DNA of 64,000 nucleotides from Novosphingobium sp. (GTDB lineage: Bacteria > Pseudomonadota > Alphaproteobacteria > Sphingomonadales > Sphingomonadaceae): assembly GCF_024642085.1 (NCBI RefSeq), contig NZ_JAHEBV010000002.1:62001-126000 (forward strand). The letters are read 5' to 3'. This document shows, piece after piece, positions 1-14,957 of this stretch. Every line of letters begins with the position of its first letter. Position 1 is the stretch's first letter. The position numbers and the translations under genes are program-made. Below the pieces are notes generated by a model, which searched no databases, was not told the DNA's origin, and worked only from the letters and a program-made list of their open reading frames with translations.

Positions 1-219
1 AGTAAACGGCTGCTCCGGGCCGCATTGTACGTCGATCGCTGATTCGGCCTGCGTCGTCACGCCCTCACGAGCGGAAAGCGTAATGGGTGTGGCAGATACC
101 GTGCAATTGGAAACGACTTCGACACTCACAGCAATAGCGCCGATGCTGGCTTCGCCGGCCCGCGCCTGCATGGGGGCGGATGAGGCGATCAGGGTCAGCA
201 GGATGGACCGGCGAAGCAC
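1..219 (-). CDS. Secreted spore coat U (SCPU)-like domain protein, N-terminal fragment (truncated by window edge)
   Basis: Manual reverse-strand translation from GTG at 219: MLRRSILLTLIASSAPMQARAGEASIGAIAVSVEVVSNCTVSATPITLSAREGVTTQAESAIDVQCGPEQPFT; signal peptide followed by C-x-V-SATP...V-x-C pattern of SCPU/Csu proteins; no stop to the edge. Confidence 0.5.
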   Translation of the reverse strand, partial: MLRRSILLTLIASSAPMQARAGEASIGAIAVSVEVVSNCTVSATPITLSAREGVTTQAESAIDVQCGPEQPFT

Positions 220-293
220 ATCCTTGACCTAACTCAGCAGACTTGCTGGCGCACTACGGCACGCATCGGTAAATATGCGCATGAAACACCGGA

Positions 294-1250
294 TCAGATT
301 CCGCCGCCAGTAAGGCGCTGGCACACCAGATCAAGCTGATCGAGCGTGCGATAGCGGATGGTAACCGTCCCCGAACGCGGATCGGCATCGGCATTGATTC
401 GCACGGGAAGACCCAGAAACTCCTCCAGATGGCCTTGCACTGCTGCGATATCGGCGGTTGAACCGACATCGGTTTGACCCCGGGCGCGGCGCGGTGCAGC
501 ACTGCCAGGCGATTTGCGTCGAACAAGTTTTTCGACCTCACGCACAGACAGGTGGCGCGCAACTGCGTCGGTGGCCACCATCAAGGCATCTTCAACTCCG
601 ATAAGCGCACGGGCATGGCCCATCGAAAGTCGACCTTCCTCCACCAGCTCAAGTACCGGTTCAGGCAATGTCAGCAGACGCTGGAAATTGGCGACGTGGC
701 TGCGGCTCTTGTCGACAAGTTTTGCAATTTCGGCCTGGGTCAGCCCCTCATCCTCGGCCAATTTGTGATAGGCGCGCGCCTCTTCAATCGGGTTGAGGTC
801 TTCCCGTTGGAGATTCTCGATCAAGGCCAGCGCTGTAATTTCGCGCTCGTCAAGATCTCGAATTAGGGCTGGTATTTCATGCAGTTGCGCTTTTTGCGCG
901 GCCCGCCAACGGCGTTCGCCAGCGACCAGACGATAGCCTTGATCATGCGCTGTAACGATAACTGGCTGGATGACGCCGCGCGCAGCGATCGAAGCGGCCA
1001 GCTCGTCAAGCGCCGCCTCATCAAAACGCCGCCGTGGCTGACCGGGATGCGGCGAAATCGATGCAACCGCCAGCATGGCAAACCCCGCCCCGTTTAGACT
1101 TTGCCCGGCATCACCCGAAAGGCCCGCGACTACCAGCGGCTCTTCGCGACGCGAATCGCCCAGTAAAGCACCAAGACCGCGCCCCAGAGCCGGACGACGC
1201 GGGGATGCCTCAGGTTTGGACGGTGTGCGGACAGCTGGTTCGTCGCTCAT
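294..1250 (-). CDS. parB: Chromosome partitioning protein ParB
   Basis: RPALGRGLGALLGD N-terminus, PGQPRRRFDEAALDELAASI, GERRWRAAQKA, HTH DKSRSHVANFQRLL; downstream of parA with 4-bp overlap; start chosen at MSDEPAV. Confidence 0.95.
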   Translation of the reverse strand: MSDEPAVRTPSKPEASPRRPALGRGLGALLGDSRREEPLVVAGLSGDAGQSLNGAGFAMLAVASISPHPGQPRRRFDEAALDELAASIAARGVIQPVIVTAHDQGYRLVAGERRWRAAQKAQLHEIPALIRDLDEREITALALIENLQREDLNPIEEARAYHKLAEDEGLTQAEIAKLVDKSRSHVANFQRLLTLPEPVLELVEEGRLSMGHARALIGVEDALMVATDAVARHLSVREVEKLVRRKSPGSAAPRRARGQTDVGSTADIAAVQGHLEEFLGLPVRINADADPRSGTVTIRYRTLDQLDLVCQRLTGGGI

Positions 1251-2023
1251 GCAGCCTTCCTTTTTTCCGGCAACCGCGTGATCAATTCGCGTGCCAGGGC
1301 CATGTAGGCGCGGCTCCCGGCGCATGTGTGATCATAGACAAGCGCCGGCAATCCGTGACTCGGTGCCTCTGACAGGCGGACATTGCGGGGAATTACCGAT
1401 TCGAACACTAAACCGCCGAGGCAAGAGCGTACGTCATCGGCAACCTGATCGGTGAGGCGGTTGCGCCGATCAAACATGGTCAATGCAATGCCGACAATCC
1501 CCAGATCAGGATTGAACCGCTGCTGGACCCGTTCGACCGTCTGCAAAAGTTGGCTCAGCCCTTCCAGCGCAAAGAACTCGCATTGAAGTGGGACAAGCAA
1601 TGTATCGGCTGCGGTCAGGGCGTTGAGCGTCAGCAGCCCGAGAGATGGCGGGCAATCAACGAAGCAAATGTCGTGCCCGTGAGCGCCGTTCAGCGCATCG
1701 CGCAACCGATCAGTCCTGTTATCGACTGAGACGAGTTCAATTTCTGCGCCGGAAAGGTCAACGGTTGCAGGGATGATATCCAGATTGGGGATGCGTGTCG
1801 CTTGCAGGCATTCGTTGACGGATACCTGATCGACCAGGAGATCATAGGATGACCGTTCTCGATCATTCGTGGCGATGCCTATCCCGGTTGATGCGTTTCC
1901 TTGCGGATCAAGGTCGATCAGCAGGACTTTCCAGCCTGTTGCGGCCATGGCCGTCGCAATATTTATCGCCGTGGTGGTCTTGCCTACCCCGCCCTTCTGG
2001 TTGGCGATTGCCACGCGTATCAC
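1247..2023 (-). CDS. parA: Chromosome partitioning ATPase ParA
   Basis: IANQKGGVGKTTTAINIA deviant Walker A, DLDPQGNASTG; GTG start (MIRVAIANQKGG) a few nt after the rsmG stop. Confidence 0.95.
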   Translation of the reverse strand: MIRVAIANQKGGVGKTTTAINIATAMAATGWKVLLIDLDPQGNASTGIGIATNDRERSSYDLLVDQVSVNECLQATRIPNLDIIPATVDLSGAEIELVSVDNRTDRLRDALNGAHGHDICFVDCPPSLGLLTLNALTAADTLLVPLQCEFFALEGLSQLLQTVERVQQRFNPDLGIVGIALTMFDRRNRLTDQVADDVRSCLGGLVFESVIPRNVRLSEAPSHGLPALVYDHTCAGSRAYMALARELITRLPEKRKAA

Positions 2024-2028
2024 GACGT

Positions 2029-2679
2029 TTATCCCTTCATTCCGCGCTTTGCCGGTCGTCCAATATTGCCCACGATCACACCAGCTTCTGGGTCTGTCAG
2101 CGATTGTTCCACGTGGAACATATGTCTCCATCCCCCGAGTTCCTGCAATTCATGCGCGGCGGACCTGCCTTTGGGCAACAACCATAGTGTGTCTGCTGTG
2201 GAAAAACGCTCCGATAGGCTTATAAGCTTGTTCAGCGGAGCAAATGCCCGTGCCGAAACGACACGGACCGGAAATGACGAGAGCGACTCCAGTCGATCGC
2301 CATGTATTTCTACATTTTCGAGGCCGAGAGCCAATGTTGCTCTGGTAAGCCAGTCTATCCGCCGCGCCCGCGATTCAACCAGATGAACTTTAGATTCGGG
2401 ACGCAGAGCGGCAATCACCAATCCAGGAAAGCCGGCCCCAGTACCCAAATCAAGCCAGGGTGAACACGTTTCACGTGGAGAGTGCGGCAACAATTGCGCC
2501 GAATCGGCAATGTGGCGCGGCCAAATCAGATCCAGACTTCCAGTGGAAACAAGGTTTTGCTTGCTGTTTTCTTCGGTGAGCAATGTGATCAGCTTTTCCA
2601 ACCGCTCCCCCGCTTGCACATTCCACTCTGGCAGAGCGGAAAGCCAGGCACGCGCCGAACGTTCGTCATTCAATATCAC
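2029..2679 (-). CDS. rsmG: 16S rRNA (guanine527-N7)-methyltransferase RsmG (GidB)
   Basis: [29 protein letters not shown]; position between mnmG and parA. Confidence 0.93.
2105..2120. promoter_or_regulatory. parS: parS centromere-like site (inside rsmG coding sequence)
   Basis: Perfect 16-bp palindrome TGTTCCACGTGGAACA. Confidence 0.9.
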
Positions 2680-4523
2680 GCGGCAATCCGCCGTGCCTGA
2701 ACCAACAACGCGGCCAGAGCAGCGGGCGTAATGCCGGGAATGCGGCCTGCCGCAGCTAGTGTTTCAGGCCGGGCGGATGAAAGCCGTTCAACCATCTCTC
2801 GGGATAGCCCTGGCACGGCTTCGTACGGAAAGGTTTCACCCAGAACCAGTGCGTCAGCGGACCGCATATCGCGCAATTCAGCATCCTGCCGAACCAGGTA
2901 AGGTGCATATGCGGCGTCTTCGGCAATCTCGTCGAGGATATCGCAATCGCCGATCGGCAAATCGCCAAGCCAATTTGAAAGACCAACCATGCTTACGCCG
3001 TCAAAGCGCAACCAATCACGCAGGGTAAGTCGCCCGCCATCGGGCCTTACGGACAGGCCGGCAGCAATAAGGTCACCAGCCGCAACATTTAAGTCGAGAC
3101 GGTCTTCTATCGTTCGCTTGGTTTGCTTTCGGTCCCGAAACCATTCGCGCCGCTCTGCACCAATGCAACCGGCTGCAAGGGCCAGATCGGTCAAGCGGGT
3201 TGAGGCATTGTTGGCCCGTAGACGCAATCGATACTCTGCCCGCGCCGTAAGCATCCGGTATGGCTCGCTTACGCCGTGAAGGGTCAGATCATCCACCATC
3301 ACTGCAAGATAGCTGTTGGCGCGGTCAAGGGGCGCTGGTTCACGATCCAGCACAGACGCAGCAGCGTGCATTCCGGCGACCAAGCCTTGCGCGGCCGCCT
3401 CTTCATAACCGGTGGTGCCATTGATCTGACCGGCGCAAAAAAGACCTGCGATTGTCCGCATTTCGAGGCTTTTTCGCAGACTTCGGGGATCTACATGATC
3501 ATATTCTACCGCGTAGCCCGGCACCACCATGTCGACTTTCTGAAGCCCCGGCATAGTACGCAGCATGGCCAGTTGCACGTCAGCGGGCAATGACGTGCTT
3601 ATGCCGTTAGGATAAACCAGATGCGTATCAAGGCCTTCCGGTTCCAGGAAAACCTGATGCCCATCACGATCGGCAAAACGGTGGATCTTGTCCTCTATCG
3701 AGGGACAATAGCGCGGGCCAGACGCACCGATCGCGCCGCTGAACAACGGTGACCGATCAAGGTTGGCGCGAATGACTTCATGACTCGCCGGGTTGGTTCG
3801 GGTGATCGCGCAAAACACCTGCGGCAAAGGACGCCGCGTACCCATCGCGCTCATCGTCCACGGTTCGCTGTCTGACGGTTGTTCTTCGAGAACAGCCCAG
3901 TCTATCGTCCGGCCATCAAGACGAGGCGGCGTCCCTGTTTTGAGCCGAGCCATCGGTAAGGAAGCTGAACGCAGTTGATCCGCCAACCGTTGCGCCGATG
4001 CTTCATCGACGCGCCCTCCGGTCATGCGCTCTTCACCGCGGAATAACGTACCACCCAGGAACGTGCCGGTACACAAGACCACAGCCCGCGCTTTCAGCGC
4101 TGTCCCGTCAGCCAGCTCTACCCCCGTAACCCTTGCACCTTTAAATTGCAGCGATGCCGCCTCGCCGCCAATCAGGGTCAAATCGCCCTGCAAGGTTAGC
4201 AGCCGCTGAATTTCTGCTTTGAAACGTTTGCGGTCGGCCTGAACGCGTGGCCCCTGGACCGCGGACCCCTTTGAGCGATTGAGCATGCGGTAATGAATTG
4301 CGCCAGCATCTGCAGCGCGGGCGATGATACCATCGAAGGCATCAACTTCGCGTACGAGGTGGCCCTTGCCCAAGCCGCCAATGGCTGGGTTACAGCTCAT
4401 CGCGCCAATGGTAGCCAGGTCAAAGCTAACCAGCGCCACACGTGCGCCCATGCGCGCGGCGACCGCAGCGGCCTCTACCCCGGCGTGTCCTCCGCCGATG
4501 ACAATAATATCAAACCCACTCAT
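2676..4523 (-). CDS. mnmG: tRNA uridine-5-carboxymethylaminomethyl modification enzyme MnmG (GidA)
   Basis: [25 protein letters not shown] motif, [36 protein letters not shown]. Confidence 0.97.
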
Positions 4524-4547: not shown

Positions 4548-4563
4548 TGTTCCACGTGGAACA
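4548..4563. promoter_or_regulatory. parS: parS centromere-like site (mnmE/mnmG intergenic)
   Basis: Perfect 16-bp palindrome TGTTCCACGTGGAACA, identical to the site at 2105. Confidence 0.9.
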
Positions 4564-9882: not shown

Positions 9883-12636
9883 TCAGAACTTGCCGCGCAG
9901 TGTTACACCGTAGGTCCGCGGTTCGGCCAGGAATGCAGAAAAGATCTGGCGACCACCGGGGAACGCTGGATAGGTGAACGCGGCTGATGCACCGCCTGCC
10001 TGGAACGGGGTGTTGAAGGCAACCTGAGTATAATCCTTGTCGAACAGGTTCTGAACCCAGGCTTCTATCGCCCACTTCTTGTCCGGACCGCGCAGACCAA
10101 CGCGGGCATTGACCAGGATGAAAGAATCCTGCGCTTTCTGCGGGAACAGGTCAGAACCGGTGTTATAATCGCTGCTTAACCGTCCATCGACGTAGAACAG
10201 GGCAGACAAGCCGGAACTGCCGATGTCCGGGGTCCAAGACGCCGAACTTGTCACGACCAGTTCCGGGGCGTTTGAAAGCTGTTTGCCCGGCAGCAGGCGC
10301 AGTGCAGGATCCAGCGGAGCGCCGCTTTTATTACCGACCAGGTCATTGCGATACTTGGTGCTCGAATAGGTCACACCAAAGTTGAAGGCCAGATTGCGTG
10401 CCGGATTGATGGCGCTTTCAATTTCAACGCCTTGGCTGAGGACGCCGTAGCTGACATCACCGATCGGACATGCTCCGGTGGCTGCGCTGGCATCACGGTC
10501 GAGCCCGCCAAGGCTTGATTTGCAGCCATTGACCGTCTGGACCAGGAAGACCGAACCATTGAAGGTGTTGAGCTGGAAGTTCTTGAACTCCTGCCGGAAG
10601 CCGGTGATCGAGACGCTGAACGGCCGGGTGCCGTATTTCAGCCCGACTTCGTACGCGTTGTTGAGTTCCGGATCGAATTGCAGGTTGCCAACCAGCGACT
10701 GGGCACCGCCAGCAGCCGCAAATGTAGTGGTGGGCACGCCAGCAACCGGCAGGATGGGTAGTTTCAGCGCCGACCGGTCAAGGTTGAAGCCGCCTGCCTT
10801 ATAGCCCTTGGAAAAGCTGGCATAAGCCAGCAGATCGGGCGTGACCTTGTAAGACAGCACGGCAGTGCCGGTGAACTCGCTTTCATTGCGCTTGCTGTTA
10901 ATCGAAACGCCGTTCAGTTCTGCGGTTGAGTTGCCTTGGCAGCCCAGCCCGATCAACGCGCCGGCCAGGCCACGCGCCAAGGCGTTAGCACTGGTGAGAG
11001 CACTGGTCAGACTGCTTTGCAGTGACGTACAGACCGTGTTGTTATTGCCGAAGGTGGCGTTGAAGTCCTTCTTTTCCCACGTGTAGCGCGCGCCCAGGGT
11101 CAGCTTGAGCTGATCGGTAAGCGAAATGATGTTGTGGGTGAACAGCGCGTAATTGCGGCTTTTCTGGTTATAGACATCAGTCGTGCTGCCAAGGTTATTC
11201 AGCCCGTCGAGCGTCGTGAAACCAGCTGCAATTGCTGCACCTGTAGCCCCGCCGCCGCTAGCACTTGCGATAGTTGCCGGTCCGACTGTCGGCGGAACGC
11301 AACCAACGTTGGTGGGCGAATACAGACCGGCAAGAGAGCCTCCGCTGATAATGCGGCAGGTGGCAAAGCGGCCATACTGGTTGCCAAACCGCAAATTGTC
11401 GGACAGCGACAACCGTTCATCGGCAAGGAAGCCACCGATTAACCAGTCCAGCTTATCGTTGAAGGCTGAACCTTGCAGGCGCAGTTCCTGGCTGAAAGTC
11501 TTGAACTGGCGGAACGCATTTCCGTCGTCGGACCGGTACAGAATATCGACCGCTGAATAGTCAGTGTCCGAACCTCCCCCGCTCTTGTATTCGCGGTAAC
11601 CGGTGATCGAGGTCAGCTTGGCGGCACCCAGATCCTGGTTCCATTCAAGGCTGACACCGCCATCGTTGGTGGTACCGTGGAAAGTACGCCCTGAGTTTAC
11701 CCAGATATTACGGCTGAACGGATCGCTGAAACCCGCTGCCGGCTGGCCAAGATCGGTCAACACGCGAACGATATTATTCTGTGCCGGATCGTTGAGCCCG
11801 CCAATCAACGGATTGAAGTTGCGATCAAGATAGACCGCAGCGCAGCAGTCTTCGCTCTTGTGGGAATAATCGCCAATCAGACGGATGGAGGTAGCATCGC
11901 TCGGCTCAAACAGCAGCTGGCCGCGCACGAAATACCGGTTCCGGTTGTTCACGTCGCGGTTGTTTAGCACGTCGTTGTAGAACCCGTCGCGCTTGGAATA
12001 AACGCCGTCGACACGAACAGCGAGTTGGTCCGAAATCGGACCGGTCAATCCGCCAGCCAGCCGCCAGTAGTTGAAGTTGCCGTAAGTCGCTTCGGCATTG
12101 CCCCCGAAAGTGAATGACGGCTTCTTGCTGATCACGTGGATCAGGCCTGCCGAAGCATTGCGCCCGAAAAGCGTACCCTGCGGACCGCGCAGCACTTCAA
12201 CACGTTCGATTTCGCCCAGTTCATTAAGGCCTATACCTGAGCGCGAACGATAGACGCCATCGATGAATACCGCGACAGAACTTTCCAGACCGGGATTGTC
12301 ACCAACCGTGCCGATGCCGCGAATACGCGCCGAACCGTTTGCTTCGGTGCCGGTAGAGGATACGAGCAGCGACGGGGCAAGCTGGTTAAGCTGGCGAATA
12401 TCGTTTGCCCCCGAGTTTTGCAAAGACTGTGCATTGACCGCCGAAATCGCGATCGGCACGTTCGACAAAGCTTCGGCCCGGCGGGTCGCGGTGACGATAA
12501 TTTCACCGCTGGCAGTTTCACCTTCGTCAGCCTGTGCAGTGGAATCCTGCGCGTAGGCCGGCGCGCTGAGCGCCAGAACGCTTGAAGCCGCAACAAGCGC
12601 CTGCAAGCTGATTTTCCGCGAAAAATACCTCATCAA
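9883..12636 (-). CDS. TonB-dependent receptor
   Basis: Signal peptide, GEIIVTATRRAEALSNVPIAISAVNAQSLQ plug, RIRGIGTVGDNPGLESSVAVFIDGVY, C-terminal GVTLRGKF. Confidence 0.95.
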   Translation of the reverse strand: MMRYFSRKISLQALVAASSVLALSAPAYAQDSTAQADEGETASGEIIVTATRRAEALSNVPIAISAVNAQSLQNSGANDIRQLNQLAPSLLVSSTGTEANGSARIRGIGTVGDNPGLESSVAVFIDGVYRSRSGIGLNELGEIERVEVLRGPQGTLFGRNASAGLIHVISKKPSFTFGGNAEATYGNFNYWRLAGGLTGPISDQLAVRVDGVYSKRDGFYNDVLNNRDVNNRNRYFVRGQLLFEPSDATSIRLIGDYSHKSEDCCAAVYLDRNFNPLIGGLNDPAQNNIVRVLTDLGQPAAGFSDPFSRNIWVNSGRTFHGTTNDGGVSLEWNQDLGAAKLTSITGYREYKSGGGSDTDYSAVDILYRSDDGNAFRQFKTFSQELRLQGSAFNDKLDWLIGGFLADERLSLSDNLRFGNQYGRFATCRIISGGSLAGLYSPTNVGCVPPTVGPATIASASGGGATGAAIAAGFTTLDGLNNLGSTTDVYNQKSRNYALFTHNIISLTDQLKLTLGARYTWEKKDFNATFGNNNTVCTSLQSSLTSALTSANALARGLAGALIGLGCQGNSTAELNGVSINSKRNESEFTGTAVLSYKVTPDLLAYASFSKGYKAGGFNLDRSALKLPILPVAGVPTTTFAAAGGAQSLVGNLQFDPELNNAYEVGLKYGTRPFSVSITGFRQEFKNFQLNTFNGSVFLVQTVNGCKSSLGGLDRDASAATGACPIGDVSYGVLSQGVEIESAINPARNLAFNFGVTYSSTKYRNDLVGNKSGAPLDPALRLLPGKQLSNAPELVVTSSASWTPDIGSSGLSALFYVDGRLSSDYNTGSDLFPQKAQDSFILVNARVGLRGPDKKWAIEAWVQNLFDKDYTQVAFNTPFQAGGASAAFTYPAFPGGRQIFSAFLAEPRTYGVTLRGKF

Positions 12637-12782: not shown

Positions 12783-13808
12783 TTAAGGACGCCAACCCCG
12801 AACCAGCGCCAGTAAATGGCCAACATTCTCGACCGGTGTGGTCTGACCAATCCCGTGTCCCAGGTTGAACACGTGGGGTCGATCAGCAAAAGTATCGAGG
12901 ATTTTCAGCGTTTGGCGCTCCAGTTCCGCTCCTCCTGCCAAGAGCAGGAGGGGATCAAGATTGCCCTGCACTGGCATGCGAGAAGGAAGTACACGTGCCG
13001 CCCACAGCGGATCGACCGTTTCGTCGATCCCCACTGCATCAACTTTGGTCTCGCGGACATAGGCATCGAGTTTCTCGCCCGCGCCCTTGGGAAAGCCGAT
13101 GATCGGAACGTCAGGAAATCGCTGGCGAAGCGCTGACACAATCGCTGCGTTGGGTGCCACCACCCAGCGTTCGAACTCTGCAGGAGCCAGGCTGCCAGCC
13201 CAGCTGTCAAACAATTGCACTGCCTCGGCCCCTGCCAGGATCTGGCCGCCAAGATATTCGACCGTCACCGCAGTGATCGCATCGATGATGGCCTGGAACG
13301 CGGCCGGATCGCGGTAAGCCATGGCACGGGTGTCATGCTGGTCGCGGCTGCCCTGACCGTTGACCATATAGGTCGCGACGGTCCACGGGCTGCCGGCAAA
13401 ACCCAGCATCGTCTTGTCTGCGGGCAGGGCCGCGCGCACCAACTTGACTGTTTCATAGATCGGGGAAAGCCGCTCGGGCACCGCGTGAAGCGCGGCCAGC
13501 GCCGCGTCCGCCAACCGCGGGGAGAGGTGTGGCCCCTCGCCCGCCAGGAACTCAAGATCCTGGCCCATGGCATAAGGAACGATCAGGATATCCGAAAACA
13601 GGATTGCCCCGTCAAAGCCGAACCGGCGGATCGGCTGCAAGGTGATTTCGGCCGCCGCTTCGCTATCATAAACCAGCGGCAGGAACCCGCCCTTCTGTTC
13701 ACGCAAAGCGCGATATTCGGGAAGATAACGCCCCGCTTGGCGCATCAGCCAGACTGGCCGATCACTGGAGTTTTCACCCCGCAGGGTACGTAGGAGCAAA
13801 CCGGGCAT
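12783..13808 (-). CDS. hemE: Uroporphyrinogen decarboxylase
   Basis: PVWLMRQAGRYLPEYRALR, GFDGAILFSDILIVPYAMGQ, GFAGSPWTVATYM, FNLGHGI; start set at MPGLLLRTLRGENS. Confidence 0.97.
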   Translation of the reverse strand: MPGLLLRTLRGENSSDRPVWLMRQAGRYLPEYRALREQKGGFLPLVYDSEAAAEITLQPIRRFGFDGAILFSDILIVPYAMGQDLEFLAGEGPHLSPRLADAALAALHAVPERLSPIYETVKLVRAALPADKTMLGFAGSPWTVATYMVNGQGSRDQHDTRAMAYRDPAAFQAIIDAITAVTVEYLGGQILAGAEAVQLFDSWAGSLAPAEFERWVVAPNAAIVSALRQRFPDVPIIGFPKGAGEKLDAYVRETKVDAVGIDETVDPLWAARVLPSRMPVQGNLDPLLLLAGGAELERQTLKILDTFADRPHVFNLGHGIGQTTPVENVGHLLALVRGWRP

Positions 13809-13866
13809 CGGGCGATTCCTAATCAAAACAATAAGATTCTTAAAAGGATTCTGTAGGTTGTTGTGC

Positions 13867-13875
13867 TGTGGAAAG
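13867..13875 (-). promoter_or_regulatory. DnaA-box-like sequence CTTTCCACA
   Basis: Reverse complement of tgtggaaag; 2 mismatches to TTATCCACA. Confidence 0.4.
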
Positions 13876-14004
13876 CGGGGACGACGCGCCCTTGCCTGAT
13901 TTGTGCCGGACTGAACAGGGCCAAGCGCAACGGCGAATCCCTACCCCTGCGCGTCAAGCTTAAGCTATGCCCGCTATCCCCAGCCTGTGGGGAACAGTTT
14001 CCCC

Positions 14005-14013
14005 CTGTCCACA
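14005..14013 (+). promoter_or_regulatory. DnaA-box-like sequence CTGTCCACA
   Basis: 2 mismatches to TTATCCACA; identical 9-mer recurs at 14098. Confidence 0.5.
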
Positions 14014-14097
14014 AGAGTCCATTTCGAAGGCCGGTTGCGGGCAGCGAATCCCTTGCCGAACTTGTGCCTGCTGTTGTCCCGTGGTTTATGCGGGCCT

Positions 14098-14106
14098 CTG
14101 TCCACA
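14098..14106 (+). promoter_or_regulatory. DnaA-box-like sequence CTGTCCACA
   Basis: Second copy of the same 9-mer, just upstream of the DUF299 start. Confidence 0.5.
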
Positions 14107-14126
14107 GGGGCTTTTCCGATCCCGTC

Positions 14127-14957
14127 ATGCCGCGCCTGCACCTGCATCTTTTGTCCGATTCAACCGGCGAAACCCTGGAGATGATCGCCAAGGCAGCGCT
14201 CGCGCAGTTCGAGGGAGCGGATGTATCGCGCCATTTTTGGCCGATGGTCCGCAGCCAACAACACCTTGACCGGATCATGGGTGAAATCGCCAGCAATCCG
14301 GGCGTGGTATTCTTCACGCTGGTCAATGCCGAAACCCGCACCCGGCTGGAAGAGCAGTGCCGCACGCTTGGCCTGCCAATCGTTCCAGTGCTTGATGCAG
14401 CGGTCGAAGCACTAGAAAGCGCACTGGGCCAGCACCCCAAGGCCCGGCCTGGCCGCCAGCATATGATGGATGAGGCATACTTTGCGCGGGTCGATGCGAT
14501 CCAGTTTACCATCGCGCATGATGATGGCGTGCTGTGGGAAGACTGGGAAGAAGCCGACATCGTGCTCGCCGGCGTTTCGCGAAGTTCCAAGACCCCGACC
14601 AGCATTTATCTGGCCAACCGGGGTTACAAGGTGGCCAACATACCGATCGTTGTGGAAAGTCCGCCGCCTTCAGCACTCTACGGCCTGCGACATCCGCTGG
14701 TGGTCGGGCTGACGACTGCGCCAGAACGGTTGATCCAAGTACGCCGCAATCGCTTGCTGTCGCTTAACCAGGCGCCCGAAACGGCCTATGTGGATGAAGA
14801 TCGCGTTGCCAAGGAAGTGCAGTTTGCGCGGCGCATGTTTGCCGACAACGACTGGCCGGTGATCGATGTTACCCGACGCTCGATCGAAGAGGCTGCAGCG
14901 GCGATCATCAACCTCTACAACGAGTTTCTGGCCGCGCGCGAGGCTGCGGCGGAATGA
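14127..14957 (+). CDS. Pyruvate, phosphate/water dikinase regulatory protein (PSRP, DUF299)
   Basis: [55 protein letters not shown]. Confidence 0.93.

Follow-up and report, generated by a model that had tools for sequence, protein, structure and literature searches.

Genes and sequence elements of the hemE–DUF299 gap

The window, that is, the whole stretch of 64,000 nucleotides that was analyzed (G000:C50:62001-126000), belongs to a draft genome of 2.9 Mb in 65 contigs. The start codon of hemE (an ATG ending at 13808, minus strand) and that of the DUF299 gene (14127) are separated by 318 bp, and the coordinates assigned to the putative origin in the earlier note, 13809-14126, corresponded exactly to this gap from gene start to gene start. 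The DUF299 protein showed 95% identity with its counterpart of Novosphingobium kunmingense, which identifies the organism as a sphingomonad similar to Novosphingobium. Beyond hemE, the genes hemJ, rho, mnmE, mnmG, rsmG, parA, and parB were arranged in this order, and maf, aroE, coaE, and dnaQ followed beyond the DUF299 gene; the names of rsmG, mnmG, and parAB were given from the ORF sequences, with no family search. A TonB-dependent receptor-like ORF (9883-12636, 917 aa, named by eye) separated hemJ from hemE within the otherwise conserved origin-side gene cluster. Two perfect parS sequences were present in the window against 0.01 expected, and parAB and both parS were located 9-12 kb from the gap, in agreement with the expectation that parAB lie near the origin. 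When the hemE region was used as a query, a second match of 27 bp was found in the same genome, on contig C44. The features of the locus are as follows.

294-2131, minus strand: parB and parA, ORFs recognized by eye from the sequence
2105-2120: parS (TGTTCCACGTGGAACA), perfect match
4548-4563: parS (TGTTCCACGTGGAACA), perfect match
12783-13808, minus strand: hemE, uroporphyrinogen decarboxylase (TIGR01464, 390.7 bits)
13809-14126: hemE–DUF299/PPDK-regulator intergenic region, predicted oriC (gene boundaries; GC-skew minimum at the homologous gap of relatives)
13814-14050: GANTC cluster, six sites (13814, 13835, 13847, 13935, 14015, 14046), a number per 318 bp that is equalled but not exceeded elsewhere in the 166-kb contig
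13815-13857: AT-rich stretch that probably serves as the duplex unwinding element (best 40-mer, 75% AT)
13867-13875, minus strand: DnaA box 1 (CTTTCCACA), TCCACA core kept by 102-103 of the 103 homologues, A/T at position 3 throughout
13893-13904, plus strand: conserved element TGCCTGATTTGT, clade consensus TGCCCGAWTTGT, near-invariant columns in the 103-sequence alignment
13934-13939: central CGANTC, CcrM-type methylation site, with CGANTC in the same stretch in 101 of 103 homologues
13975-13992: TATCCCCAGCCTGTGGGG, imperfect inverted repeat, each half similar to a DnaA box, conserved as CC.CaG.CTGTgG
13989-14004: palindrome GGGGAAcagtTTCCCC, not conserved among relatives
14005-14013, plus strand: DnaA box 2 (CTGTCCACA), facultative, full TCCACA core no longer intact in about 30% of the 103 homologues
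14062-14090, plus strand: TTGTGC-N17-TTTATG with CCCGTGG in the spacer, TTGT and TTTA with a constant 17 nt between the hexamers in 94 of 103 homologues
14098-14106, plus strand: DnaA box 3 (CTGTCCACA), TCCACA core ~97-100% per position in 103 homologues
14127-14957, plus strand: DUF299/PPDK-PEPS regulator, RP001 homologue, COG1806 (NF003742, 328.9 bits)

The AT-rich stretch of about 40 bp that the earlier note had placed next to hemE was confirmed. Its segment 13819-13857 contained 72% AT, and the best 40-mer, starting at 13815, was the most AT-rich 40 bp of the window, with about six of the 64,000 40-bp windows being equally AT-rich. In 80 homologous gaps, the first 55 bp averaged 64% AT versus 40% for the remainder. 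Two GANTC sites lay wholly within 13815-13857, and a third (13814-13818) extended across its left edge.

Conservation of the DnaA boxes and GANTC sites

All three box motifs named in the earlier note, CTGTCCACA twice and CTTTCCACA once on the opposite strand, were present. In the whole window, TNTCCACA was found 8 times against 4.6 expected, which indicated no excess, and three of the eight copies were inside the 318-bp gap. Over 80 homologous gaps its density was 7.7/kb, versus 0.02/kb in hemE and 0.22/kb in the DUF299 gene. Box conservation was determined from an alignment of 103 gaps having the common architecture, and among the relatives box 1 was represented by NTWTCCACA. Boxes 1 and 3 were 232-237 bp apart (typically ~234 bp) in 84 of the 89 gaps in which both were found by pattern. 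The gap thus holds a cluster of three TNTCCACA boxes, of which only boxes 1 and 3 are well conserved. As the earlier note had stated, none of them is the canonical TTATCCACA, and no copy of that sequence was found in the gap within one mismatch. Inspection by eye alone revealed no convincing DnaA-trio beside box 1. The proposal that C at position 1 and G at position 3 mark a sphingomonad-type box was rejected: position 3 was always A/T in box 1 and variable in box 3 among the 103 homologues, so this is no rule of the lineage. The GGGGAAcagtTTCCCC palindrome mentioned in the same note does exist; as a functional element, it was rejected owing to its lack of conservation among relatives.

Other near-invariant elements in the 103 gaps were TGCCCGAWTTGT, the central CGANTC, CCCCAGcCTGTGGGG, and TTGT-N17-TTTA with CCGTGG inside the spacer. 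Sampling of more distant family members revealed no TGCCCGAWTTGT-type element. From its sequence, TTGTGC-N17-TTTATG may be the promoter of the DUF299 gene or a low-affinity DnaA element. A scan of 13700-14300 with the sigma-70 promoter consensus gave zero matches, the TTGT-N17-TTTA element included, so that its role as a promoter is a suggestion only.

The GANTC cluster had not been described in the earlier note. GANTC occurred 116 times in the window versus 232 times in shuffled sequences, a reduction by half, and such depletion has been published for genomes with CcrM (PMC3973325). Despite this window-wide depletion, the gap contained six sites. The density over 80 homologous gaps was 15.7/kb versus 2.5-2.7/kb in the flanking genes, and the number per gap was 5.3 versus 1.4 from a first-order Markov model. 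The gap of G005, a closed genome of the same genus, contained 11 sites and was the top window of the 640 kb sampled (next 7), and that of G080, from another genus of the same family, ranked first among the windows of 372 kb (next 5); the extent to which this surpasses the usual GANTC excess of intergenic regions was judged by these ranks alone. Single gaps carried up to 12 sites in the Novosphingobium-type set, and 19 were counted in another genus. One CcrM homologue (6pbd, E 1e-151) and GcrA were found in the genome to which the window belongs.

Several further observations were made on the distribution of these sites. The gap of G080 (G080:C22, ~278009-278351, L252) had its 19 GANTC in 343 bp, or ~55/kb versus 1.7/kb on the contig; it was 97% identical to that of G156 (L293), and the surrounding 1.4 kb was 93% identical between the two species. 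In G005, two windows of 346 bp that were rich in GANTC, with 7 and 6 sites, were located just upstream of dnaA (G005:C1, ~1800-3550, L042). On the contig carrying the window, G000:C50:23511-23938 (L034) contained six sites in 318 bp, equalling the origin.

GC skew, synteny, and the position of the origin

The gap was flanked by hemE and the DUF299 gene in all 29 genomes with both genes inside the fetched locus (own included). The two genes were adjacent in 49 of 49 family loci examined and, at the class level, in 19 of 20 genomes chosen among DUF299 carriers. No match to DUF299 was found in 4 of 121 family genomes (G060, G061, G114, and G143).

Since the genome containing the window is a draft, relatives were used for the analysis of GC skew, which the earlier note had proposed as a check. 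In 20-kb samples of G005, negative skew prevailed from 2.0 to 3.40 Mb; from 3.60 Mb onward the skew was positive, and it turned back near 1.6-2.0 Mb. Over the contiguous 3.34-3.62 Mb, the cumulative minimum was at 3,479,880, about 3 kb from the gap at ~3,476,600-3,476,950. In G037, a closed single contig from another family, the skew was negative as far as the end of the record, which adjoins hemE, was positive onward from base 1, and turned again near 1.5 Mb. On the 372-kb contig of G080 the minimum was at 280,974, and the gap was at ~278,009-278,351. The skew minimum was therefore within 3.3 kb of the gap in both G005 and G080, and the turn at the homologous gap was found in all three genomes. 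In G145 (same genus, one contig), the skew was negative ahead of the gap and positive past it, with a local minimum ~15 kb off. In the window's own contig, the skew was weak and its minimum was 9.5 kb from the gap. Among the relatives with long contigs, the closest was G004, which also showed a weak skew and a shallow minimum tens of kb away. In these two, the skew is too weak for origin placement.

In the genomes checked, dnaA was hundreds of kb from hemE or on a different contig. It was located at 77-1465 (minus strand) in G005, ~430 kb from the gap on the circle, and at 329 kb in G037. In both genomes this position falls within a single skew arm, and an origin at dnaA was therefore rejected. 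This result bears on the explanation that the gap is only a divergent hemE/DUF299 promoter region, where DnaA and CcrM would act as transcription regulators, and that the true origin is elsewhere, for example at dnaA. The conserved TTGT-N17-TTTA arrangement facing the DUF299 gene and the short spacing between the two genes are in its favor, but the skew of G005, G037, and G080 turned at the gap instead of at dnaA, which is ~330-430 kb distant in G005 and G037, the AT-rich stretch and box architecture exceed the needs of two housekeeping promoters, and the roles of origin and promoter are compatible. We regard the promoter-only explanation as very improbable. Lower still is the probability that the gap is a relic of an origin, retained for synteny in a species that initiates elsewhere; the weak skew of the own contig, with its displaced minimum, would fit such a relic, but the window retains boxes 1 and 3 in intact form, together with an intact AT-rich stretch, GANTC cluster, and pair of parS sites.

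A position between divergent hemE and DUF299 genes, DnaA boxes, and an AT-rich region, as known from hemE-linked origins, were all found here. Because synteny, box architecture, the GC-skew minima of relatives, and published predictions for the genus and the family agree, the location of oriC proposed in the earlier note is supported, and we conclude with a probability of about 95% that chromosome replication starts in the gap and that this origin is of the hemE-linked type originally described in Caulobacter under the name Cori. The result, although sound, was to be expected, as hemE-adjacent origins have already been predicted in the genus and in most Sphingomonadaceae. It places the origin for one more sphingomonad and provides a comparative map of conserved origin parts, which corrects the box consensus, shows that the Caulobacter CtrA sites are missing, and highlights the GANTC methylation sites and two near-invariant elements as worth testing.

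Proposed mechanism and comparison with known origins

The location, conservation, and GC skew were computed; the binding of DnaA, the opening of the duplex, and a possible role of methylation are inferred as follows. ATP-DnaA would bind two boxes ~234 bp apart, box 1 on the hemE side and box 3 on the DUF299 side, and the bound DnaA would nucleate binding at weak intermediate sites, namely box 2 and the CCCCAGcCTGTGGGG repeat. Between box 1 and hemE, the DnaA complex would then unwind the AT-rich stretch; the helicase would be loaded there, and the forks would depart both ways. CcrM would methylate the GANTC cluster, leaving the origin hemimethylated for a time after initiation, and this state may tune re-initiation or both flanking promoters.

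Within the genus, oriC of Novosphingobium sp. PP1Y and N. aromaticivorans DSM 12444 has been predicted next to hemE with three DnaA boxes (PMC4059872), the same arrangement as found here. The oriC of PP1Y was reported near a dnaA gene (PMC4059872), whereas dnaA was far from hemE in the genomes checked in this study. A hemE-linked oriC has also been predicted for Sphingopyxis granuli TFA and most Sphingomonadaceae (PMC4741004), and that of TFA resembles the present gap in that its DnaA boxes are conserved and an unwinding element has been proposed for it (PMC4741004).

Caulobacter crescentus Cori and the gap have in common the hemE/DUF299 (COG1806/RP001) junction, an AT-rich stretch, few non-canonical DnaA boxes, and GANTC (PMC1914354, PMC4468827, PMC3973325). 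The gap differs from Cori in lacking CtrA sites and the IHF consensus: no TTAA-N7-TTAA was found in the gap within one mismatch, with exact sites in 1 of 80 homologues, and WATCAANNNNTTR was not found in the gap, the exact consensus occurring in 1 of 80 homologues (exact matches scored only). Of the features of a strict, CtrA-controlled Cori, only the GANTC sites, six in number, were thus found. The box sequences CTTTCCACA and CTGTCCACA are also unlike the G-boxes of Cori, which are TGATCCACA. For the Cori G-box, a T-to-G substitution is described in PMC4468827. The missing CtrA sites fit the report that Sphingomonas melonis pays no cost in growth for the loss of ctrA (PMC8116508). GANTC sites at Caulobacter origins have already been published (PMC3973325), and the cluster described here is a strong instance of this known trait that may have a regulatory role.

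It is a tentative and rather unlikely idea that, in sphingomonads, the conserved GANTC cluster makes CcrM methylation a direct initiation switch in place of CtrA; if true, such a switch would parallel Dam/SeqA control at E. coli oriC. By analogy, the gap resembles E. coli oriC in combining a DnaA-box array, an AT-rich element, and dense adenine-methylation sites, and the two differ in location and in the methylation system, which is GATC/Dam in E. coli and GANTC/CcrM in the gap.
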